A stretch of DNA of 47,972 nucleotides from Oscillospiraceae bacterium (GTDB taxonomy: Bacteria > Bacillota > Clostridia > Oscillospirales > SIG519). Under the pieces are notes generated by a model that made no database searches, was not told the DNA's origin, and saw only the letters and a program-made list of their open reading frames with translations. Shown in pieces: positions 27,519-40,981 of the stretch. Both the position numbers and the translations under genes were made by a program. Where the stretch lies: NCBI GenBank assembly GCA_015067255.1, contig SVMS01000011.1:1-47972 (forward strand). Reading direction: 5' to 3'. Every line of letters starts with the position of its first letter. Position 1 is the stretch's first letter.

Positions 27519-28124
27519 TCAGCTTTCATACGGTCGTATGCGAAGGGTAGCGCCTATAGAATTACAAATTTCGAGGCAACGCTGTTGCTCTTCGGGAGAA
27601 GTTACAACATCTACCACTGTCATCATAACATCAGGAACATAGTTTACGCAATCTTTTGTAAACTCAAGCATAGCGTCGTATGAGTCAATACCGAATTTAG
27701 AACGCACTATTTTAAGATAATCCTCTTTATTGGTAGCATTAAGGCTTACGGAAACTGCATCAATAAGTCCTTTGAGCTTGGGCGCAGTTTTTTCTTTCCA
27801 AATTAAATCGGATAAACCGTTTGTATTTATACGGATTTTTATATTACTTTTTTCTTTAATATATTTTGCTACCTTCAGCAAAGCGTCAAGACGTTCTGTA
27901 GGTTCTCCAAAACCGCAAAAAACAATTTCAGTGTATTTATCTAAATCCCAAGTGTCAATGCTGTCACAAATTTCTTGTACAGTGGGCTCACGCTCAAGCC
28001 AAAGAGAGTCTGAATCATAAACTTTGTCGTTGTTATTTCTCAGGCAAAAAGTACAGTCACAAGGACAACGGTTTGTGATATTGACATAAATTCCGTTTTT
28101 AACCTGGTATGTAATAGTCATCAT
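27519..28124 (-). CDS. Radical SAM protein, TatD-associated type
   Basis: A short (201 residue) radical SAM protein. The 4Fe-4S ligating cysteines are Cys20, Cys24 and Cys27 (CX3CX2C, with an extra Cys22 inside the motif). Then VFCGFGEPTERLDALL supplies the GE motif and IRINTNGLSDLIW the ribose-contact strand. Length and pattern recall the family annotated as TatD-linked radical SAM proteins, sometimes fused to or beside TatD nuclease; no tatD is in this window. The gene lies 7 nt after the ECF S-component, so it is co-transcribed with the B6 genes. Substrate unknown. Confidence 0.85.
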   Translation of the reverse strand: MMTITYQVKNGIYVNITNRCPCDCTFCLRNNNDKVYDSDSLWLEREPTVQEICDSIDTWDLDKYTEIVFCGFGEPTERLDALLKVAKYIKEKSNIKIRINTNGLSDLIWKEKTAPKLKGLIDAVSVSLNATNKEDYLKIVRSKFGIDSYDAMLEFTKDCVNYVPDVMMTVVDVVTSPEEQQRCLEICNSIGATLRIRPYES

Positions 28125-28131
28125 ACTTTTG

Positions 28132-28629
28132 TCACCTTATAAATTTTTTAATATCAATTTTATCAAATGTAATGCCAATAAGGATAAATACAATACTGCT
28201 AAAAACACATTGAGTTATATTTCCCCAAATTGCAGCTATAGGAGAAAAGAAATTACCCGTTATCAACGCATCGTAAATGTAATAGCCACCAATACATATT
28301 AAGGAGGAAGGGACTAAGGCAAATATATTTCTTTTAGAAATAATTTTGTGCGTTTTTCTGCAAAAGAAAAATACAGTTATAGCTTTAATGATTACAGAAG
28401 CAGGCGCCCAAAGAGCAAAGCCTGTAAGACAGTCAGCAAGAAGAGCACCGCCTGCACCTACAAAGACAGCATAAGGCAATGGGAGTATGCAAGAAGCAAG
28501 ATATATAAATCCGTCTCCTATATGTATATATCCCGTATGGATTGGAATATGAAGATAAGCAGTAAAAACAAATACAATAGCAGTAAAAACTCCTGCAAGG
28601 CACATAAGCTTTATGTTTTCTTTTTTCAT
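28132..28629 (-). CDS. pdxU: ECF transporter S-component, probable vitamin B6 uptake
   Basis: 165 residues, 5-6 transmembrane helices, no soluble domain. The N-terminal AGVFTAIVFVFTAYLHIPIH and HIGDGFIYLASCILP blocks match the S-component family (TIGR04002-like) that has been linked by genome context to pyridoxine. Placement 17 nt downstream of a pyridoxal-type kinase supports uptake followed by trapping through phosphorylation. The shared ECF module (EcfA, A', T) is not in the window. The substrate is inferred from context only. Confidence 0.75.
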   Translation of the reverse strand: MKKENIKLMCLAGVFTAIVFVFTAYLHIPIHTGYIHIGDGFIYLASCILPLPYAVFVGAGGALLADCLTGFALWAPASVIIKAITVFFFCRKTHKIISKRNIFALVPSSLICIGGYYIYDALITGNFFSPIAAIWGNITQCVFSSIVFILIGITFDKIDIKKFIR

Positions 28630-28646
28630 TATATATAAAAGCTCCT

Positions 28647-29471
28647 TCAGATTTCTGATAAAAATTCTTCAAAACAAATACCGTCAGTTTTCGGTAAACC
28701 GAGCTCAACAGTTTTGCGCAAAGCTTTGGCAATAAAAGAAGAAGCGTGTTGAATAGAAGTTGTAAAGTCTTTGCCATTAACAGCATCAGCGGCAATAATT
28801 GAAGAAAAAACATCACCGGTTCCTGCACGGCATGGACCTACTTTGTGTGCTGTAATAACAATAGGTGCTTTTCCTTTTTCAAAAATAAAATTATCAAGGT
28901 TGTCTTGGTGTTCAAGACCTGAAATAACAATTTTTTTCGGTCCCATTAAGCTAAGCTTTTGACATATTTCAAGAAGTCCATCTTTGTCTATATCATTACG
29001 GTATTTAGTATTAGTAAGAATACAAGCCTCTGTGAGATTAGGAGTAAGAATATCAGCATATGGGACTAAAGAACCCATTTTTTTTGCAAGCTCGGGAGAG
29101 TAGGTGGGGTATAGCTCTCCGCAATCACCCATAATTGGGTCTATAACAATAACGGCATCTTCTTTTTTAAAATACTCAAAAAAATGTTTTACTATATCTA
29201 TTTGTTCCGGAGAACCGAGAAAACCTGTAAGTATTCCGTTAAAATTAAGATTTAACTTTTTCCATTCTTCTATATAAGAGCTCATATGTTCGGTGAAATC
29301 TGTATAATAAAAGCTATCAAAGCCTGTATGGTTAGAAAAAATTGAGGTAGGCAAGGGACAGCACTGAATTTTCATCGCAGATATAATAGGTAATGAAACA
29401 GTAATAGAACAACGTCCAAAACCGGAAAAATCATTGATAACAGCTATTTTTTTTTGCTGTGTGCGTAACAT
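28647..29471 (-). CDS. pdxK: Pyridoxamine/pyridoxal kinase
   Basis: A PfkB/ribokinase-fold vitamin kinase, 274 residues. Seen: INDFSGFGRCSITVSLPIIS at the N-terminus, VIDPIMGDCGELY, TPNLTEACILTN, and the anion-hole / catalytic block GTGDVFSSI with Asp220. It phosphorylates pyridoxal, pyridoxine or pyridoxamine. The NDFSGFGR start is typical of the PdxK/PdxY-like group of Firmicutes. A strong AGGAGG lies 8 nt upstream. It heads the minus-strand operon and diverges from the MocR-type regulator, whose promoter overlaps its own. Confidence 0.9.
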   Translation of the reverse strand: MLRTQQKKIAVINDFSGFGRCSITVSLPIISAMKIQCCPLPTSIFSNHTGFDSFYYTDFTEHMSSYIEEWKKLNLNFNGILTGFLGSPEQIDIVKHFFEYFKKEDAVIVIDPIMGDCGELYPTYSPELAKKMGSLVPYADILTPNLTEACILTNTKYRNDIDKDGLLEICQKLSLMGPKKIVISGLEHQDNLDNFIFEKGKAPIVITAHKVGPCRAGTGDVFSSIIAADAVNGKDFTTSIQHASSFIAKALRKTVELGLPKTDGICFEEFLSEI

Positions 29472-29483
29472 TTGCTTTCCTCC

Positions 29484-29512
29484 TTGCTTTTTATTTTTAA
29501 ATAGTATATAAT
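29484..29512 (+). promoter_or_regulatory. Promoter of the MocR-type regulator
   Basis: TTGCTT (29484-29489), 17-nt spacer, consensus TATAAT (29507-29512). The -10 region overlaps the -10 of the opposing kinase promoter (29503-29531), so a protein bound here would affect both genes. Confidence 0.65.
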
Positions 29513-29531
29513 ATTTTTGGTCATATGAAAA
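29503..29531 (-). promoter_or_regulatory. Promoter of the pdxK operon
   Basis: On the minus strand TTTTCA (plus 29526-29531), 17-nt spacer, TATACT (29503-29508). The -35 is weak, which fits a promoter that depends on an activator such as the divergent MocR-type protein. A loose direct repeat, TCATATG (29521-29527) and TCAGAATG (29535-29542), is a candidate binding site. Confidence 0.5.
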
Positions 29532-29562
29532 TAGTCAGAATGGGAGAAAAATATATAACCAG

Positions 29563-30669
29563 ATGAAATACATAATAGATAAAGATGATACTTTGCCTGC
29601 TTATCTTCAGCTTTATAGGCAAATGAGGGAAGATATAATAAAAGAGATATACCCTTATAACAGTAAGCTGCCTTCAAAAAGAATACTTGCAGAAGAAATG
29701 GGATTAAGCACAGTAACAGTAGAGCACGCATATTCGCTTCTTTGTGATGAGGGATATGCGGAAGCTAAAGAAAGAAGCGGATATTTTGTTATTTTTCGCA
29801 TAGATGACGGCTTCGCAAGTGCATCGGATAAAACTGTTTCAAATACAACCTTGTCTAATCACAATAAAAGTGCATCTTCCGAATTTCCATTTTCGGTATT
29901 TACAAAAACAATGCGAAGCGTAATGAATGATTTTGGAGAAAGTATTTTAGAAAAATCTTCAAATTTAGGTTGTATAGAATTAAGAGAAGCAATAAGACAA
30001 TACCTTGCAAGAAGCAGAGGTATTATTGCTGATACAAGGCAAATTATTATAGGCTCAGGCTCTGAATATCTTTATAGCTTAATAATAGATATGCTTGGAA
30101 GAAATAAAGTGTATGCAATAGAAAGCCCCTCATATAAAAAGATAGAGCAGGTATATAAAGCTTCCGATGTAAAATACGAAAAGCTACCTCTTGGTAATGA
30201 TGGAATAGAAAGCATTGCTTTAAGAGAAAGTAAAGCAGACGTTCTTCATATATCTCCGTATCGTAGTTTTCCAAGCGGAGTAACAGCAAGCGCATCTAAA
30301 CGCCACGAATATATGCGTTGGGCGAGTAAAGATAACAGATATATTATAGAAGATGATTTTGAATCGGAGTTTTCAGTTTCGAAAAAGCCCGAAGAAACGT
30401 TGTTTTCAGACACATCAAAGGAAAATGTTATCTATATGAACACTTTTTCTAAAACTATATCCCCGTCGCTTCGTGTGGGGTATATGGTTTTGCCCGAAAA
30501 ATTAGTGGCTGTATTTGAAGAAAAATTAGGCTTTTATTCTTGCACAGTACCGACTTTTATGCAGTTTGTTTTGGCAAAGCTTATTTCAAACGGTGATTTT
30601 GAAAGACATATAAACAGAGTAAGAAGAAAAAAGAGAAAAGAAGCAACTGATAATTTAAAAAGCTTATGA
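29563..30669 (+). CDS. MocR-type GntR regulator, C-terminally shortened
   Basis: An N-terminal GntR winged helix (about 10-75: LPAYLQLYRQMREDI, LPSKRILAEEMGLSTVTVEHAY) is joined by a linker to a fold-type I aminotransferase-like domain that binds PLP rather than catalysing. The Schiff-base lysine is Lys297 in NTFSKTISPSLRVGYM. The PLP-contact block IIEDDFESEF carries Phe266 where MocR proteins usually have Tyr. At 368 residues it is about 80-100 short: it stops after RHINRVRRKKRKEATDN, losing the small C-terminal domain, and the stop codon sits in the terminator stem. Divergence from a B6 kinase suggests PLP sensing. Confidence 0.85.
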   Translation: MKYIIDKDDTLPAYLQLYRQMREDIIKEIYPYNSKLPSKRILAEEMGLSTVTVEHAYSLLCDEGYAEAKERSGYFVIFRIDDGFASASDKTVSNTTLSNHNKSASSEFPFSVFTKTMRSVMNDFGESILEKSSNLGCIELREAIRQYLARSRGIIADTRQIIIGSGSEYLYSLIIDMLGRNKVYAIESPSYKKIEQVYKASDVKYEKLPLGNDGIESIALRESKADVLHISPYRSFPSGVTASASKRHEYMRWASKDNRYIIEDDFESEFSVSKKPEETLFSDTSKENVIYMNTFSKTISPSLRVGYMVLPEKLVAVFEEKLGFYSCTVPTFMQFVLAKLISNGDFERHINRVRRKKRKEATDNLKSL

Positions 30670-30694
30670 GTCGTAAAAACTCATAAGCTTTTTT
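30657..30694. terminator. Bidirectional terminator between mocR-type gene and ricT
   Basis: A perfect 15-bp stem: AAAAAGCTTATGAGT (30657-30671) with ACTCATAAGCTTTTT (30679-30693), 7-nt loop, T-runs on both strands. The TGA stop of the regulator (30667-30669) lies within the left arm, and the ricT stop codon begins 4 nt past the right T-run. Confidence 0.92.
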
Positions 30695-30697
30695 GCA

Positions 30698-31561
30698 TCA
30701 TATAGAATCGTCTGTAACGATTTCTGTTTCCTGGGTTTCAGGCTCTTCTTTTTTCTTTAATATTTTAAGGTCTTCTTTATTATAAATTTTTGGAGTAGCA
30801 TCAGGATTGCTGTCCAAACGTACTTTTACAAGACCTTTAAGCAAATAGATTTCCGTTACAACGCCGTTGCCGTCCGGAGTTTGTACTATACTGCCTACAC
30901 GTGGAGTTGTTTTAGCCAAATCTTCATATGCGTTTTGCTCGTATTTAAGACAGCACATAAGCCTGTCGCAAGTTCCTGAAATTTTTGTAGGATTAAGAGA
31001 TAGGCCTTGTTCCTTTGCCATTTTAATAGAAACAGGGTGAAAATCTCCTAAAAATGAGGAACAGCAAAAAGGTCTGCCGCATATTCCCAAACCGCCTTGA
31101 AGCTTTGCTTCATCGCGTACACCGATTTGACGAAGCTCAATTCTTGTTTTGAAAATTGATGCCAAATCCTTTACCAATTCACGAAAGTCAACTCTGCCTT
31201 CGGAGGTAAAATAAAATAGAAGTCTGTTTGAATCAAAGCTACATTCAACGTTTATAAGGTTCATATCAAGCTTATGCTCTAAAATTTTCTTTTGGCATAT
31301 TTCAAAGGCTTGTTTTTCTCTTTCAACAGCCTCTTGAGATTTTTTTATATCTGCCGGAGTAGCTTCTCTTAATACGTTTTTAAGAGGGGGCACAATACAG
31401 TCATCAGGAACCTCTCTGTTTTCCAAAGCCACTTCTCCGATTTCTACTCCGCGTGAAGTTTCAACAATAGCAAAGCTTCCTTTTTTAAAATTTATTCCTG
31501 CGGGACCAAAATAATAAATTTTTCCGCCTTTTTTGAATTTTATTCCAATAACCTCTGTCAA
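30698..31561 (-). CDS. ricT: RicT (YaaT), PSP1-domain iron-sulfur protein
   Basis: RicT is the PSP1-domain subunit of the RicAFT (YlbF-YmcA-YaaT) complex, which in Bacillus binds Fe-S clusters and affects RNase Y-dependent mRNA processing, sporulation and biofilm. The cysteine-rich blocks GICGRPFCCSSFLGDF and GTCDRLMCCLKYE are conserved. I chose TTG 31561: GGGAGGA lies 6 nt upstream and TTG overlaps the holB TGA (TTGA). The ATG at 31576 lies inside that ribosome binding site. The product is 287 residues with an acidic C-terminal tail. Confidence 0.95.
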   Translation of the reverse strand: MTEVIGIKFKKGGKIYYFGPAGINFKKGSFAIVETSRGVEIGEVALENREVPDDCIVPPLKNVLREATPADIKKSQEAVEREKQAFEICQKKILEHKLDMNLINVECSFDSNRLLFYFTSEGRVDFRELVKDLASIFKTRIELRQIGVRDEAKLQGGLGICGRPFCCSSFLGDFHPVSIKMAKEQGLSLNPTKISGTCDRLMCCLKYEQNAYEDLAKTTPRVGSIVQTPDGNGVVTEIYLLKGLVKVRLDSNPDATPKIYNKEDLKILKKKEEPETQETEIVTDDSI

Positions 31562-32412
31562 TGAACTTCCTCCCAAATTTTAATAAATAAAACAGTAACC
31601 GAAAGATTGATATTTGAATTTGATTCTATTTGTGTATAAGCATCTTCTAAGATGTTAACAACATTTAAAAGCTGTTTTATAGTAGTTTTCGAAGCGGCAA
31701 GCGCATAGTCTTTTGAAAAATCAGGTATGTAAAGGTCTGCACCTTTAACACTTTTTGAGATTATTATATCCCTGAATACGTTTTTTAAAAGACTGATTTG
31801 CTTTAAAAGAGACTCACGCTTTTTAGAAAGAGAGTCTGAAAATTTTAGAAAAGCAAATTCATTTGTACCATATAAAGCCTTTAAAAAATCAGAAGCTGTC
31901 TGAAGCTCTTTTTTCTTAGAAGCTTCATCCTCAGAAGAAAGCAAGAGTCTGATACAACGGGAATTGATTGTTTCAAGCATAGCTTCTCCCTCGGGAGTAA
32001 TAAGAATAAATACTGCATATTCCGGAGACTCTTCAAGGGTTTTTAAAAGAGCATTCTGTGCGGCAACGGTGAGTAAATTTGCCTGCGGGATTATATAAAT
32101 TTTCTTTTTGCTTTCATTGGGAATAACAAAAACGTCTGCAAAAATTTGACGTGAAGCTTCAACACCGATTGTCGCTCTGTCTTTTTGGACAGATACAGTA
32201 ATAACATCAGGATGAATATCCTTTTGTATTTTCAAACAGTCTTTACATTTTTTGCAGGGGACTTGTTGACCGACACATTCAAAGCACATAGCCATAAGCT
32301 TTGCTGCTTCAAGTGCTCCTGAGGTATCATTACTTTCAATTAAATAGGAATGACTAAGACGGTTTGAAGCTGCAGCAGACAATATATAATTAAAAAGCTC
32401 TTGCTTTTCCAA
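31558..32412 (-). CDS. holB: DNA polymerase III delta-prime subunit
   Basis: Delta-prime is the stator of the clamp loader that places the beta clamp on DNA. Present: zinc-module cysteines (Cys46, 53, 56, 59 around CKKCKDC), NALLKTLEESPEYAVFIL, and the SRC motif in TINSRC. The P-loop position (ESNDTSGALEAA) lacks the GK signature, as expected for non-ATP-binding delta-prime. Length 284 is short but usual in Clostridia. Start is TTG 32412 with AAAGGG 12 nt upstream. The holB-ricT order is conserved in Firmicutes, but tmk is not beside it here. Confidence 0.93.
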   Translation of the reverse strand: MEKQELFNYILSAAASNRLSHSYLIESNDTSGALEAAKLMAMCFECVGQQVPCKKCKDCLKIQKDIHPDVITVSVQKDRATIGVEASRQIFADVFVIPNESKKKIYIIPQANLLTVAAQNALLKTLEESPEYAVFILITPEGEAMLETINSRCIRLLLSSEDEASKKKELQTASDFLKALYGTNEFAFLKFSDSLSKKRESLLKQISLLKNVFRDIIISKSVKGADLYIPDFSKDYALAASKTTIKQLLNVVNILEDAYTQIESNSNINLSVTVLFIKIWEEVH

Positions 32413-33916: not shown

Positions 33917-36900
33917 ATGGATAAAAGCTTATATGTTTATGCAAAGCAGGCGGAATATATAAAAAAATATCAACAAAATCTTACCCTTGCTGAAAAAAAC
34001 GAGGGAGATAAACGCTGGCTTTATGAAAATATATATATAGTTATGCAGGAAGTCTATTTTGCCCTTAATGAATTAAGGGGTAACAGCGGTATTGCCTTTG
34101 ATATAGCAAAAGAATGTATTTCAAACTTTGAATATGATATTTCTTTAGAAAATTTAGGAGCAATTCTAAAAAGCGATAAATACAAGAATGTTTTAAAATA
34201 TGAAACTATTTCAAAAATACTTTTATGCTTAAGATTGGAGCTATGTTACAGACTTTACAGACTTTGCAGAGGTAAAGAAAAATGTAGCTTTAAGGATATA
34301 ATTATCGCTTACCGCAAACTTTGCGATATAGAGCAAAAGGATGTTTTAAGCTTTTGGGAGGTTGAGAGGGTATTAGAAAAAGACCCTGAGAATGTATATT
34401 CCTCTATGACAGACGCGTCAAAGGATTATTACAGAAAAAAAGTTGCGGAGCTTGCTGATAAAAATAATATTTCTCAGCTTGAACAGGCAAAAAAAGTATT
34501 GAACGAAGCTCAAAAAAATAACGTTCATTTGGGAAAAATACTTTTTAAAAAAGAAAAAAACATAGCAGGTTATATATATTTATTTTTGTTGACATTTTTT
34601 ACAGTGGCTTTAAGCAGCGTTCTTACAGCTTTTTTGGGACGTTGGTGGAGCTTTTTCCTATTTGTAATTCCTGTAAGTGAAATTGTTAAAAAAATATTAG
34701 ATTTTTCCTATTATAAATTCAGAAAAATAAGACCTTGTTTTGTAATTAAGCTAAAGGAGATACCCGATAATGCGCTTACAGCAGTAGTTATATCGTGTCT
34801 TGTAACAAGCAAAAAGGATATAGAAAAGCTTATAACAAGAATAAAAAAGCTTAATTGTACAAACGGTGGTAAAAACGTACTTTTCGGACTTTTGGTAGAT
34901 TTTAAAGACAGTAATCTGAAAGTAGAAAAAGGCGATGAAGAATTAAAGCAAACTCTAAAAAAAGAAATAGAAGAATTAAAAAACGATTGCTTTTTCTGTG
35001 TTGTAAGAAACAGAAGCTATAATCCAAAAGAAAAAATATTTATGGGTTTTGAGCGAAAAAGAGGAGCAATATGTGAGCTTGTTTCCTATATATATCAAGG
35101 CAAAAAAATCAACGGTGATATCTTTGGAAATCAGGAAAGATTAAGAAAAATAAAGTATATTACAGCTTTGGACAGCGATACAAATTTACCAATACAAGAA
35201 ATTAAAACTCTTGTAGGTGCTATGCTTCATCCATCAAATAAGGCAGAAATTGATGAGAAAAAAGGCATTGTAAAGAATGGCTATGGAATAATCGTTACAA
35301 GACTGTCAGCGGATTTGGCATCTTCTCAAAAAAATCTTTTTTCAAAAATTTATGCAGGCTTCGGCGGTAGCGAAACCTACAGCAACCCTACCTATGACCT
35401 TTACTATGATATTTTTGAAGAAAGTATTTTTTCGGGAAAAGGAATTCTTGACGTAGAAGCATTTTATAAAACGGCAATTAAAAAAATCCCTCATAACAAA
35501 ATTTTAAGCCACGATTTATTAGAAGGTTTTTTTATGAGAACAGGCTTTGTAGGCGAGGTTGCTATGACAGACAGCTTTCCTTCAAGTGTATTTGCTTATT
35601 ATAAACGTGCTCACAGATGGTATAGGGGAGATGTGCAAAGCCTTATATTCTTATTTAAAAAGGTTGTTAATTCCAAGGGGGAAAAAGAGCTTTCGGGAAT
35701 TTCCTCAATAAATAAATTCAAGCTTTTGGATAATATAAGAAGAATGCTTTTGATAAGAGCTAATTTACAGCTTTTACTATGGGGCTTTTTTTCACCGATT
35801 TGTTTTGCTGTGGGAATTATATCACTGTTTTCGGGACAGATTATTTCTCTTGTTGATACAGTAGTGCACGGTGGCCTTGAAGCTATAAAAATACGATATT
35901 CTTCAAAAACAATATCAGTATTTAAAAGCGTATTTTTAAGCGCATTGTTTGATTTGATTTTTTTACCTTATGCTGCTTTGGTAAGCTTTCACGCTTTTTA
36001 TGTAGCGCTTATCCGTATGCTTATTACTAAGAAAAAGCTTTTGGTTTGGATAACAGCCGCACAATCGGATAAAAGAAAAGATACTCTTCTGAGCTATTAT
36101 AAAGGAATGATAATATGTCCGGTTTTTGCATTGGTTTTTATTCTTACACTGAAAATTCACCTTATTGTCATAGGAGTAGGTTTTGCTCTTGCGCCCTTAG
36201 CGGCATATCTGATTTCTAAACCAACCCCGGAACAAATAAGAAAAATACCTGCTGAAAAACAAGAAAAGCTTATGGAATATGCAAAAGATATATATAGCTA
36301 TTTTGCAGATTTCGTAAATCAAGAAAACAATTTTTTGCCGCCCGATAATTTACAGGAGCAGCCTGTTTACCGTCAGGCTAAAAGAACGTCACCTACCAAT
36401 ATAGGTATGTCTCTTATTGCTCATGTCAGCGCCCATATTTTAGGAATAATTACTTTTGAAAGCTTAGTTTCAAAAATTGAAAATACAATTGAAACAATAA
36501 AAAAAGCTGAAAAATACAGAGGTCATCTTTATAACTGGTATTCAACAGAGGATTTAAAGCCTTTAGAGCCACGATATATTTCTACCGTTGACAGCGGAAA
36601 CTTAGCTTGCAGTCTTTGTCTTTTGTATTCTTATCTATCAAAGAACAAGGCTAAAGAAAGCTTGCTTAATGATATAAAAAATATAGAAAATGAAATGGAT
36701 TTTGATTTCTTATATAATAAGAAAAAGAAGCTGTTTTATATAGGGGTAGACAGTGAAGGTAAAACAGGGGATAACTGCTACGACCTTTTTATGAGCGAAT
36801 ACAGAATGACGGGATACTATCTTATAGCAAAGGGAAAGGTTGGCAAAAAGCACTGGTCTGCCTTAAATAGACTATTTATAGGTTACAGAGGCTATTTCGG

Positions 36901-39900
36901 CTTGAAATCCTGGAGCGGAACAATGTTTGAATATATGATGCCTAACTTGTTTTTGCCTTGTTATAGTGGCAGTCTTATATGGGAAGCAACTCATTTTGCT
37001 ATAAATGAACAAAAAAAATATCATAGACCCTACGGAATTTCCGAAAGCGGATTTTATGCTTTTGATAATGAGCTTTCCTATCAGTACAGAGCCTTTGGAG
37101 TGCCTAAGCTCGCTCTTGATAAATACAGACAGGGTGAAAGGGTTATATCACCTTATTCAACCTTTTTGACTGTTGCTATACAGCCCTTCAGCGCCCTTCA
37201 TAATCTTGAAAGATTAAAAAAATTAGGTGTATATGGAAAATACGGATTTTTTGAAGCAGTAGACTTTACAAAAAATCGTGCTAACGGTCAATTCGCTATA
37301 GTAAAAAGCTATATGGCACATCACTTGGGAATGAGTATATGCGCAATATGTAATGCACTTTGCGACGATGCACTTGTAAAAATATTTATGAGTGATTTGC
37401 AGATGAATAGCTTTGAAGAATTGTTATGCGAAAAGGTACCTGCTCGTATAAGCTTATATAATGAAAAACAAGATTTCCGTATTCCTGATATGAAGCTGCT
37501 TCCTGTTTCAGTTGTAAGCCGTGAAATTTCAATGAATAATCAGAGAGCTTCTGTAATTTCAAACGGTTCAATGAATGCTGTTGTTTCTGATAATGGATGT
37601 TGTATTATTAAGTATGGCGGAGTCGGAGTATTAAAATATCGCAGAGATAATTTTAAAATGCCTCAAGGTGTTTTTGCTTTTATAATTGATAAAAATAAAA
37701 AATACAGTGTAACCTCAGCACCGTTTTTCGATACAAATCAAAACTATAAGGCGACTCTTTCTGAAAGCAGAGCAGTTTATTATTTGAATACTCAGAATTT
37801 TGATGCGACAATGGTATCTACATTGCATAAATCACAGCCTGCGGCAATTTTTGAGCTTAGTGTTGAAATGAAGAAAAATCAAGATATAAGCTTTGCTTTT
37901 TATTTAGAGCCTATTTTAACAGCCTTTGAAAGCGAACTTTCCCATCCTGCTTTTTCTGCACTGTTTACTTGCTGTCAATATGATGAGAGAGATTTTGTGA
38001 TTTTTACACGCCGTACAAGAACTCCTGAAGATAAGGAAATATGGCTTGCCGCAGGAGTGCTTAGCAGTGATAGTGAGTTAAAATATGAAACAATGAGAGA
38101 AAATATTTTGCCCAGAATGGAAGGTCTTTCAGATATTGATTTGAGAGAAAACAGCTTTAAAGGAGTGGCACCATCTCCTGTAAATCCTTGCCTTTGTATT
38201 TTAGGAAAAATGAAGCCACAAAAGAATAAGGCTTCTGCTGTTTTGCTTTTATGCTGCGGCAAAACTAAAGAGCAGGCACAGGAGATGTTTTTAAATCTGA
38301 AAAATGAAAAAACTTCTTTGATGAGTCAAGCCTTACCGCCCTTTTCAACACTTTCTCAAAGAAAACAGGAAACAGCTCTTAAAATTTTACCAAAGCTTTA
38401 TTATAATACTAATCCAATAATACAACCGCCCGAAAGAAGCTATGGCTTAGATACCCTGTGGCAATACGGAATTTCCGGAGATATTCCTATAATTTGCACA
38501 TCTATAAATAAACAAGAGGATTTAAAAGCATTAAGAACACCTATTGATATATATGTATATTTCCGTAAAAAAGGAGTTAACTGTGACCTTGTAATTTTTT
38601 ATGACGAAAAACAAGGCTATGACAGACCGCTTTATAATGGAATAAATGCACAGATAAATCAAATTCGTATAAGCGGATACCGTTCAAAAGGTGATATATA
38701 TACGGTAAATCTCCCTGTTCAAGAGAGAAGATTTTTACTTCGTATGAGCGTATTTAGCTTTGAAGAAAAAGACGAAAGCTTTTCTCAAAACAAATTTTTA
38801 CCTTTTAGGCTTTCATACGGCGAAAGTGAGCCTAACAGGGAAGCTTTATTTAATCAAACTCAAATAGGAGGTTTTTCGCAAAAGGAATATAAAATAACGA
38901 ATAAAAGACATTGGAGCTTCAGACCTCCTTACTGCGCAATAATTGCAAATAAAAATTTCGGCACTTTGGTTTCAGATAGCTCATTGGGCTTTACCTTTGC
39001 ATTAAATGCAAGAGAAAATAAGCTGACTCCGTGGTCAAATGATACTGTATATGATAACAGCGGAGAAAGACTTTTTTTACGTTGTCATGGAAAAATATAT
39101 GATATATGCCGTGAAGGTCATACTGTTATAAGGCCTGATAAAGCAATTTTCGAGGCAAAGCTTGATTTTGCAGAGATAAAGGTTACTGTAACAGTAGACG
39201 GTATAAAGCCGTGCAAATATGTAGACGTAGAAATAAAAAACAATTCTCAACGTATGGAAAATATTGAGCTTTGTTTTTATTGTGAGCCTATTTTAAGTTC
39301 ACAAACCCGACACGGTGCAATAGCAACAGAAAATATAAACGGAGTATGGAGCGCAAGAAATATTGTTAATAACGGATATGGCGGAATAATGTTTTTGTAC
39401 TGTAAAGACAGCACCTACGGAACAGACAACAGAAGAAAATTTTTACAGGGTATATGGAACGCATTGACTAAAAAGCCTTGTGAAAATTGTCTTGCTGTAG
39501 GAGTGGAAAAGCAGCTTAACAGTGAACAAAGCTTTAAAACAAGCTTTATTCTGGGATATGCAAAATCTAAAGAGGCTATTGAAAACTGTATCAAAGAAGA
39601 GAGAATAGAAAATAAATTTGACAGAAAATTTATTATTGATACTCCCGATGAAGAATTGAATCTTTTTTATAACAATTTTTTGCAAAAACAAATTTTATAC
39701 TCCCGTCTTTTTGCTAAAACAGGCTTCTATCAATGCGGTGGTGCTTTTGGCTTCAGAGACCAGCTTCAAGATGCAATCTGCATCAGTTCAATCTATCCGG
39801 AAATTTTAAAGCTTCAGATTTTGCGTTGCTGTTCAGTACAGTTTGAAGAGGGCGACGTTATGCATTGGTGGCACGAGTACTGTGAGTCAACAAAGATTAT

Positions 39901-40981
39901 AAAAGGCGTGCGCACAAGGTGTAGCGATGATTTGCTATGGCTCCCATACGCTCTTTGTGAATATATAGAAAAAACGGGAGATAAAACAATTCTCGATAAA
40001 AAAATATTTTATCTTAAAGCAGATGAACTGAAAAAAGGAGTTAACGAAGCCTATATTACTCCCGAAAAATCACAGATTAAGGAAAATGTATACGAGCACG
40101 CAGTAAGAGCTTTTAAAAAGGGGCTTAACTATGGAGAAAACGGACTTATTCTTATAGGCAGCGGAGATTGGAATGACGGCTTTAATAATGTAGGCGCACA
40201 AGGAAAAGGCACTTCTGTATGGCTTAGTCAGTTTGTCGTTTTGGTAGCAGAGAGATTAAAAAAGCTTTGCATTGAATTAGCAGACAGCGAAACTGCTAAG
40301 CTTTGTAAAACAACTGCTCAAGCTTTAAGAAAAAACATTGAAGATGTAGCCTTTGATTCGGGCTATTATATAAGAGGCTTTTTTGATAACGGGGACCCAT
40401 TGGGAAGTCAAAACAGTGATGAATGTAAAATAGATGCTTTGCCTCAAAGCTTTGCTTCAATAATAGGACTTGAAAAAGATAGGGTTAAAAGTGCGCTTGA
40501 AAATGCCGTTAAAGAGCTTGTAGACGAGGAAAACGGAATAATTTCTCTGTTTGTTCCGCCTTTTGATAACAGCAAAAATAATCCCGGGTATATAAAAAGC
40601 TATATACCCGGAATTAGAGAAAATGCAGGACAATATACGCACGCAGCATTATGGCTTGTATTAGGACTGATTAAGGACAAACAAACCGATAAAGCCTATG
40701 AACTTTTAAAAATGATAAATCCGTTAAGTCACGCAAGAAACAGCCATACAGCTAAAAAATATCTCACAGAGCCATATGCATTATCTGCTGATATATATAC
40801 AGCTCAAGGTCTAAAGGGAAGGGGAGGCTGGAGCCATTATACAGGTTCAGCAGGCTGGTTCTTTAAAATTGTAACGGAAGAAATAATGGGAGTTACGCTG
40901 AAAAACGGAGAATATACCTTCAATCCCAAATATCCTTCGCAGTGGGATAATAAAGCAAGCATAAAAATAGAAGAAAACTAA
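33917..40981 (+). CDS. Cyclic beta-1,2-glucan synthase-like protein (GT84 + GH94)
   Basis: A 2354-residue multi-domain membrane enzyme. The N-terminal region has a membrane pair near 215-255, a GT84-like transferase (ITALDSDTNLPIQEIKTLVG near 415, MRTGFVGEVAMTDSFPS, YKRAHRWYRGDVQS) and further helices around 620-770. A glycoamylase-like block (RYISTVDSGNLACSLCLLYS near 885) follows, then a C-terminal GH94 phosphorylase domain with GSGDWNDGFN near 2082 holding the expected catalytic Asp and RGGWSHYTGSAGWFFK near the end. Such enzymes polymerise UDP-glucose, cyclise the chain and trim it. It is shorter than the roughly 2800-residue proteobacterial enzymes. GGGG precedes the ATG; the end overlaps the converging gene. 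Confidence 0.9.
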   Translation: MDKSLYVYAKQAEYIKKYQQNLTLAEKNEGDKRWLYENIYIVMQEVYFALNELRGNSGIAFDIAKECISNFEYDISLENLGAILKSDKYKNVLKYETISKILLCLRLELCYRLYRLCRGKEKCSFKDIIIAYRKLCDIEQKDVLSFWEVERVLEKDPENVYSSMTDASKDYYRKKVAELADKNNISQLEQAKKVLNEAQKNNVHLGKILFKKEKNIAGYIYLFLLTFFTVALSSVLTAFLGRWWSFFLFVIPVSEIVKKILDFSYYKFRKIRPCFVIKLKEIPDNALTAVVISCLVTSKKDIEKLITRIKKLNCTNGGKNVLFGLLVDFKDSNLKVEKGDEELKQTLKKEIEELKNDCFFCVVRNRSYNPKEKIFMGFERKRGAICELVSYIYQGKKINGDIFGNQERLRKIKYITALDSDTNLPIQEIKTLVGAMLHPSNKAEIDEKKGIVKNGYGIIVTRLSADLASSQKNLFSKIYAGFGGSETYSNPTYDLYYDIFEESIFSGKGILDVEAFYKTAIKKIPHNKILSHDLLEGFFMRTGFVGEVAMTDSFPSSVFAYYKRAHRWYRGDVQSLIFLFKKVVNSKGEKELSGISSINKFKLLDNIRRMLLIRANLQLLLWGFFSPICFAVGIISLFSGQIISLVDTVVHGGLEAIKIRYSSKTISVFKSVFLSALFDLIFLPYAALVSFHAFYVALIRMLITKKKLLVWITAAQSDKRKDTLLSYYKGMIICPVFALVFILTLKIHLIVIGVGFALAPLAAYLISKPTPEQIRKIPAEKQEKLMEYAKDIYSYFADFVNQENNFLPPDNLQEQPVYRQAKRTSPTNIGMSLIAHVSAHILGIITFESLVSKIENTIETIKKAEKYRGHLYNWYSTEDLKPLEPRYISTVDSGNLACSLCLLYSYLSKNKAKESLLNDIKNIENEMDFDFLYNKKKKLFYIGVDSEGKTGDNCYDLFMSEYRMTGYYLIAKGKVGKKHWSALNRLFIGYRGYFGLKSWSGTMFEYMMPNLFLPCYSGSLIWEATHFAINEQKKYHRPYGISESGFYAFDNELSYQYRAFGVPKLALDKYRQGERVISPYSTFLTVAIQPFSALHNLERLKKLGVYGKYGFFEAVDFTKNRANGQFAIVKSYMAHHLGMSICAICNALCDDALVKIFMSDLQMNSFEELLCEKVPARISLYNEKQDFRIPDMKLLPVSVVSREISMNNQRASVISNGSMNAVVSDNGCCIIKYGGVGVLKYRRDNFKMPQGVFAFIIDKNKKYSVTSAPFFDTNQNYKATLSESRAVYYLNTQNFDATMVSTLHKSQPAAIFELSVEMKKNQDISFAFYLEPILTAFESELSHPAFSALFTCCQYDERDFVIFTRRTRTPEDKEIWLAAGVLSSDSELKYETMRENILPRMEGLSDIDLRENSFKGVAPSPVNPCLCILGKMKPQKNKASAVLLLCCGKTKEQAQEMFLNLKNEKTSLMSQALPPFSTLSQRKQETALKILPKLYYNTNPIIQPPERSYGLDTLWQYGISGDIPIICTSINKQEDLKALRTPIDIYVYFRKKGVNCDLVIFYDEKQGYDRPLYNGINAQINQIRISGYRSKGDIYTVNLPVQERRFLLRMSVFSFEEKDESFSQNKFLPFRLSYGESEPNREALFNQTQIGGFSQKEYKITNKRHWSFRPPYCAIIANKNFGTLVSDSSLGFTFALNARENKLTPWSNDTVYDNSGERLFLRCHGKIYDICREGHTVIRPDKAIFEAKLDFAEIKVTVTVDGIKPCKYVDVEIKNNSQRMENIELCFYCEPILSSQTRHGAIATENINGVWSARNIVNNGYGGIMFLYCKDSTYGTDNRRKFLQGIWNALTKKPCENCLAVGVEKQLNSEQSFKTSFILGYAKSKEAIENCIKEERIENKFDRKFIIDTPDEELNLFYNNFLQKQILYSRLFAKTGFYQCGGAFGFRDQLQDAICISSIYPEILKLQILRCCSVQFEEGDVMHWWHEYCESTKIIKGVRTRCSDDLLWLPYALCEYIEKTGDKTILDKKIFYLKADELKKGVNEAYITPEKSQIKENVYEHAVRAFKKGLNYGENGLILIGSGDWNDGFNNVGAQGKGTSVWLSQFVVLVAERLKKLCIELADSETAKLCKTTAQALRKNIEDVAFDSGYYIRGFFDNGDPLGSQNSDECKIDALPQSFASIIGLEKDRVKSALENAVKELVDEENGIISLFVPPFDNSKNNPGYIKSYIPGIRENAGQYTHAALWLVLGLIKDKQTDKAYELLKMINPLSHARNSHTAKKYLTEPYALSADIYTAQGLKGRGGWSHYTGSAGWFFKIVTEEIMGVTLKNGEYTFNPKYPSQWDNKASIKIEEN
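40584..40611. repeat. Intragenic perfect inverted repeat in the glucan synthase gene
   Basis: CCGGGTATATA (40584-40594) pairs with TATATACCCGG (40601-40611), 11-bp perfect arms and a 6-nt loop. It lies inside codons for NPGYIKSYIPG. No T-run follows. It may be a coincidental consequence of the repeated PG-Y-I / YIPG codons. Confidence 0.6.

Follow-up and report, generated by a model that had tools for sequence, protein, structure and literature searches.

The DNA analyzed here, called the window, is a stretch of 47,972 nucleotides, and the features around its PdxR-type regulator gene are collected in Table 1. Upstream of the regulator gene, on the opposite strand, pdxK is followed by a gene for the S component of an ECF transporter and a gene for a radical SAM protein. 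Elsewhere in the window, an ORF at 33917-40981 encodes a protein of 2354 residues in which the catalytic and the supersandwich domain of Glyco_hydro_94 and a stretch resembling glucoamylase were recognized; presumably it is of the cyclic glucan synthase type.

Table 1. Features of the regulator locus, with positions in the window.
Feature	Position	Strand	Basis and remarks
TIGR04100 radical SAM protein	27519..28124	-	NCBIfam; downstream of the ECF gene
ECF transporter S component, possible B6 transporter	28132..28629	-	TIGR04002; PF07155
pdxK, pyridoxamine/pyridoxal kinase	28647..29471	-	NF005491, 288 bits, cut-off 231; divergent from the regulator
Probable regulator promoter	29484..29512	+	-35 29484-29489, -10 29507-29512; by eye from the alignment
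Probable pdxK promoter, TTTTCA-17-TATACT	29503..29531	-	Scan, 9/12 matches; -35 adjoins box2
Candidate operator inverted repeat box1-box2, TGGTCATATGAAAATAGTCA	29518..29537	.	Alignment of 57 intergenic regions
Candidate operator box2, ATAGTCAG	29531..29538	.	Pattern search
Candidate operator box3, ATAACCAGATG	29555..29565	.	Direct repeat of box2 at 24 bp; includes the start codon
PdxR-type regulator ORF, C-terminally truncated	29563..30669	+	368 aa, ATG to TGA
GntR winged helix-turn-helix, residues about 13-76	29599..29790	+	Pfam and AlphaFold model
Aminotransferase fold-type-I large domain, residues about 105-344	29875..30594	+	Pfam and model
Asp264 codon, equivalent of GabR Asp279 (pyridine nitrogen)	30352..30354	+	Alignment
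Lys297 codon, equivalent of GabR Schiff-base Lys312	30451..30453	+	Alignment; unconstrained in the short clade
Arg304 codon, equivalent of GabR Arg319 (PLP phosphate)	30472..30474	+	Alignment
Terminal helix, residues 345-367	30595..30663	+	Model and alignment
Terminator-like hairpin	30657..30693	+	First arm contains the stop codon

The regulator begins with a GntR domain (PF00392, residues 14-76, 45.8 bits), and the match to Aminotran_1_2 (residues 132-357) stops at profile position 278 of 361. The NCBIfam profile of PdxR, NF052282, was matched with 388.5 bits (cut-off 320), and this match stops at position 362 of 448. The small C-terminal subdomain of the aminotransferase-like domain, which normally comprises about 300-350 residues in total, is thus absent, and full-length relatives continue past the terminal helix by a median of 92 residues. 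Because the profile matches end early and these residues are missing, the protein was classed as a truncated descendant of PdxR and not as an ordinary MocR/GabR member; NF052282 was also matched by all 49 proteins of set A2 at E values up to 1e-30. The AlphaFold model had a mean pLDDT of 90.3, with residues 83-103 below 50. It superimposed on PdxR of B. clausii with a Z score of 33.4 and 2.4 Å over 273 residues, the best GabR chains being tied, and its end falls opposite residue 380 of 478 in B. clausii PdxR and residue 382 in GabR. The initial annotation, made from the sequence alone, had described a protein of 368 residues with a GntR helix-turn-helix and Lys297 in an SKT motif, ending after the helix that precedes the small domain. 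ORF, Pfam and alignment agreed with this description, Lys297 lying within NTFSKT, and so did the terminal helix and the ends of both profile matches.

The same annotation had placed the stop codon in a perfect terminator stem with no coding remnant downstream, and both statements were borne out. The stop codon (30667-30669) lies within a perfect stem of 15 bp (30657-30671/30679-30693; -17.5 kcal/mol, z -6.7). Directly after the hairpin comes psp1 (30698-31576), which runs on the minus strand towards the regulator gene and leaves no space for a leftover C-terminal coding sequence. A search of the genome with the PdxR profile gave six matches, none limited to the C-terminal part of the profile, and of the 26 commonest neighbour families listed, none was seen to lie predominantly downstream of the regulator in over 8 loci with the short form.

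The initial annotation had proposed a search for orthologues of like length, whereas full-length orthologues in sister strains, with a premature stop in the window alone, would have indicated a pseudogene. An equally short orthologue was found in 14 of the 58 other genomes of a first search. A search of the order with a profile of 15 short proteins, at E values up to 1e-60, gave matches in at least 196 of 394 genomes, the own genome counted. Among the matches listed, 78 other short proteins (judged by the open frame), one partial and 21 full-length proteins were taken. Together with the window protein, six full-length loci of the first search (L018-L022, L024) and 80 named loci they made up 187 sequences; from the first search, L023 and L025-L032 were not included. 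The partial L227 (246 aa) and the near-identical rows L159, L044 and L073 were dropped before the tree was built, and the 183 remaining homologues fell into 127 proteins under 400 residues and 56 of 435-553 residues, with none at 399-434. In a tree that was built by a quick search without the lysine column and the C-terminal part, and rooted on L024, 126 of the 127 short proteins (349-398 residues) formed a single clade with an SH-aLRT support of 99. PdxR and GabR, the relatives with solved structures, have the full length; the truncation is therefore read as one loss, and the C-terminal domain was probably lost once, in an ancestor of the short clade. The exception, L110, is a homologue of 376 residues with its end close to that of the short clade; it may have been truncated independently or reflect a faulty assembly. 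Short forms occur not only in metagenome bins, but also in strain-titled records, i.e., Oscillibacter sp. ER4 (L057), Butyrivibrio proteoclasticus P18 (L066) and Parafannyhessea umbonata KHGC19 (L049).

Whole-gene dN/dS values were 0.04-0.18 in the 24 measurable pairs of 55 that were tried, the other 31 being too diverged at silent sites. Seven of the measurable pairs consist of two members without the lysine, six of them from among four close relatives, and their values were low as well. The short regulator is thus a conserved truncation under purifying selection. A pseudogene or a split gene, for which the missing C-terminal part might speak, was ruled out by the 126 proteins of like length in one clade and by dN/dS values far below 1. 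A special basic tail was also considered and rejected, because the net charge of 5.8 in the short clade differs too little from the 4.2 of full-length proteins in the same columns. No relative of the regulator was found in the viral contigs that were searched.

The PLP contacts of GabR, as given in Table 2 of PMC6917764, correspond in the alignment to Tyr191, Lys193, Phe236, Asp264, Phe266, Lys297 and Arg304. Tyr191 and Arg304 were present in all 126 short members and Asp264 in 125; on the tree, Tyr191, Arg304, Gly164 and Gly166 did not change at all and Asp264 changed once. The PLP lysine, which had been described as kept, is not a constant feature of the clade: the column of Lys297 holds Lys in just 82 members, Arg in 29, Gln in 6, Met in 4, His in 3 and other residues in two. 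It changed 29 times, compared to a column median of 25 (55th percentile), and 24 switches between Lys and another residue were counted. Each of Tyr191, Asp264 and Arg304 was retained in all 44 members without the lysine. The lysine is missing also in 12 of the 56 full-length relatives (7 switches), and its loss does therefore not follow from the truncation alone. L093, L097, L106, L107 and L117 are full-length PdxR homologues with Gln or Arg at this position, and the full-length homologues without the lysine include records of Pseudoflavonifractor phocaeensis An901 and Streptococcus porci DSM 23759 (L117). In the genus Streptococcus just 5 of 118 genomes had a match at E values up to 1e-60.

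Two further residues had been given weight in the initial annotation. Phe266 was said to replace the usual Tyr in contact with PLP, and it does align with Tyr281 of GabR. However, Tyr281 is listed as a ring-stacking residue in PMC6917764, so that Phe retains the aromatic ring and loses the hydroxyl group. The residue is also not diagnostic, as the position is occupied by Phe in 90, Tyr in 34 and Val in two short members and is thus aromatic in all but two. The lost ligand-binding Arg of GabR had been put forward as the reason for altered sensing. In the 56 full-length relatives the column of GabR Arg430 contains Asp (22), Glu (14), Gln (4), Ala (4), Gly (4), Ser (3), Lys (2), Asn (1), Arg (1) and His (1), and B. 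clausii PdxR has Ala. With Arg in a single full-length relative, amino acid recognition of the GabR type was probably never there to be lost. Other positions distinguish the short clade: Ser at 235 in all 126 members (His/Gln in full-length proteins), Tyr at 250 in all 126 (Leu in 46 of 56 full-length proteins), and Tyr/Phe at 233 (Ser/Asn/Thr/Ala in full-length proteins). These coordinated changes, some of them near Phe236 in the sequence, may be adaptations to the missing lid.

A gene of B6 type was found within 3.2 kb of the regulator gene in 91 of the 126 short members (ecfS 59, pdxK 32, pdxS 10, pdxT 10), and in 77 it was divergent and upstream; six members have less than 1 kb of upstream DNA. 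The respective numbers for the full-length relatives were 36 and 32 of 56. Neighbours were named by clusters of sequence similarity, and two members per cluster fit the Pfam families (PF07155, PF08543, SOR_SNZ and SNO). According to PMC9997740, PF07155 is the family of the transporters PdxU and PdxU2. Its members can also transport other vitamins, and vitamin B6 is the presumed substrate of the ECF S component. Linkage to B6 genes was seen in 61 of 82 short members with the lysine and in 30 of 44 without it, and 35 of 126 had no recognized B6 gene within 3.2 kb. A match to PdxS was absent from the own genome; in the order search, among the matches listed, 5 of 79 short-form genomes had one and 74 had none. 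ORFs related to TIGR04100 lie near seven short-form regulators, including that of the window, and the one other that was checked matched Pfam Radical_SAM.

The divergent intergenic region contains a putative operator of direct and inverted repeats. In most of 57 short-clade intergenic regions the same layout recurred, namely promoter, TG..ATAT.AAAATA.YCA, AGGAG and ATAACCAGATG, in this order. The second element represents box1 and box2 as an inverted repeat, AGGAG is Shine-Dalgarno-like, and the final three bases of ATAACCAGATG are the start codon. The inverted repeat was found in 53 of 125 short regions (mean of shuffles 0.39) and in 16 of 56 full-length regions (shuffles 0.14), box3 abutting the ATG in 48 of 125 and 0 of 56, and the complete set of three boxes in 38 short and 2 full-length regions. 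In the full-length loci L114 and L099, as seen by eye, box2 and box3 are kept and the ribosome site and the start codon are placed after box3. The operator pattern is thus partly common to full-length PdxR, and the loss of the lid seems to have altered DNA recognition little. Short members with the lysine had the inverted repeat in 39 of 81 cases and box3 at the ATG in 36 of 81, compared to 14 and 12 of 44 without it, and, therefore, the regulators without the lysine may differ more than the pocket suggests.

The promoter of the regulator gene is TTGAC-like and TATAAT-like in many relatives, and the promoter scan did not report it. Two sites like that of pdxK were found in the region compared to a mean of 5.0 in shuffles, so that the evidence for the pdxK promoter is weak and the promoter positions rest on the intergenic alignment. 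In the window, box1 is located where the regulator transcript would start and box2 beside the -35 element of the possible pdxK promoter. Such a placement would suit a regulator that represses itself and activates its targets, as has been reported of other PdxR proteins (PMC5320631; PMC11619246). A ribosome-site-like GGGAG lies 16 bases before the start codon (29542-29565), which is unusually far. A similar [AG]GGAG-like site at 13-18 bases was seen in 64 of 125 short-clade genes, and in 50 of 125 there was none within 25 bases. Box3 occupies the gap between GGGAG and ATG, as though the start codon had shifted into the operator.

Structural alignments with B. clausii PdxR (PDB 7pq9, 7zla, 7zn5, 7zpa, 7zth) showed the same winged helix-turn-helix and large domain fold at 32-35% identity. 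As in the locus of the window protein, its B6 targets are divergent and its operator combines direct with inverted repeats (PMC5320631), but it has 478 residues including the small C-terminal domain, Tyr at the position of Phe266, and pdxST as targets. As described in PMC5320631, apo-PdxR activates the divergent B6 operon and PLP counteracts the activation, the inverted repeat being preferred by the PLP-bound state and the direct repeat by the apo state. For PdxR of S. pyogenes, PMC11619246 reports activation of pdxKU without B6 and repression of its own gene in reporter assays, with RT-qPCR results less clear than the fusions. The nearest full-length relatives that were found are PdxR homologues such as Mitsuokella L098 and L116. 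The full-length homologues share inverted repeat and B6 neighbours with the short clade, but differ in their length, in the position of box3 and in residue 235. GabR of Bacillus subtilis resembles the window protein in its architecture and most PLP contacts, but it is full length, has Arg430 in the small domain, and responds to PLP and GABA.

The short regulators may sense vitamin B6 loosely or not at all. The explanation that is preferred, tentatively and at a probability close to even, is that control of B6 supply has remained with the shortened PdxR, which would bind a phosphorylated vitamer in a reversible manner and could do without the Schiff base. We infer a dimer that would bind the operator between the regulator gene and the divergent B6 genes, would repress its own gene via box1 at its promoter and box3 on its start codon, and would activate pdxK and the transporter gene when B6 is scarce. 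The half-open pocket, with aromatic residues, Asp264 and Arg304, would bind PLP or another 5'-phosphorylated vitamer reversibly, which would end the activation. A Schiff base with Lys297 may form in the window protein, but would be unnecessary, given that the lysine disappeared repeatedly among relatives whose other contacts stayed fixed. Conservation of the ring and phosphate sites, alongside a drifting aldimine lysine, is the pattern expected of a reversible sensor of B6 phosphates. A precedent from outside the fold is E. coli YggS: according to PMC9601805, crystals of a variant with the PLP lysine replaced still had PLP in the same site without a covalent bond, although the affinity was reduced and some PLP was bound by other lysines in solution. 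On the other hand, the conserved pocket residues could serve folding, loss of the lid should lower the affinity, and neither the members without a recognized B6 gene nearby nor the rarer operator pattern in those without the lysine fit well. EnuR of Ruegeria pomeroyi, of the same MocR architecture, also speaks against reversible binding without the lysine: PMC8739950 reports that the lysine is conserved in all 278 inspected proteins and needed for induction, unlike in the short clade, and that the Lys302His variant lost the PLP colour.

As this variant was also a constitutive repressor (PMC8739950), it is in line with the main rival of reversible sensing, a regulator blind to PLP that has only DNA binding and dimerization left. 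Such a protein would be a constitutive activator of B6 salvage and an autorepressor, with the pocket kept for folding; this is rather doubtful. It would account for a lysine column that evolves like an average one, for the absent lid, and for the lower frequency of the operator pattern in members without the lysine, and with no PdxS in most of the listed short-form genomes steady salvage may cost little. The unchanged Tyr191, Asp264 and Arg304 in members without the lysine argue against it, as do the inverted and direct repeats of the operator, which match the preferences of PLP-bound and apo PdxR (PMC5320631). In the model of the initial annotation, PLP would be sensed through an internal aldimine with Lys297, and amino acid recognition would have gone with the truncated part. 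The lysine in two thirds of the short members, the window protein included, and the response of full-length PdxR to PLP (PMC5320631) are consistent with this model, but it is unlikely in view of the 44 members that lack the lysine and have nevertheless kept the other contacts and, in 30 cases, the B6 linkage. That the missing domain is provided by a separate protein is highly improbable, as neither a C-terminal-only profile match nor a common downstream family was found, and a premature stop can practically be dismissed. The claim that PLP is sensed and not an amino acid adduct thus survived in part. A conserved truncation under selection beside B6 genes makes it likely that the protein responds to PLP or a different B6 vitamer rather than to an amino acid, but the arguments from the lysine and the Arg did not hold. 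In addition, an action of PLP on PdxR itself is not new, but is already part of the published PdxR model (PMC5320631).

The truncated short clade appears to be a new variant of PdxR, without a matching description in the literature examined. Titles and abstract openings of the MocR/PdxR literature, mostly other than subscription papers, described no truncated group or group without the lysine, and the available parts of PMC5320631, PMC4944035 and PMC6677901 do not mention one. In the MocR regulators GabR (PMC6917764) and EnuR (PMC8739950) PLP is reported to be held by a lysine. It is conceivable, albeit with considerable doubt, that the short clade has shed the lid and, in a third of its members, the Schiff-base lysine, and that what was a tight covalent site now senses phosphorylated B6 vitamers reversibly and without a covalent bond; these might include PNP and PMP, neither of which carries an aldehyde. 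Some of the selected regulators of the clade have the lysine and others lack it, many sharing the same operator pattern, and this natural series makes the need for Schiff base and lid in B6 sensing directly testable. In many Clostridia in which no PdxS is seen, the short PdxR is likely to act as the B6 switch.
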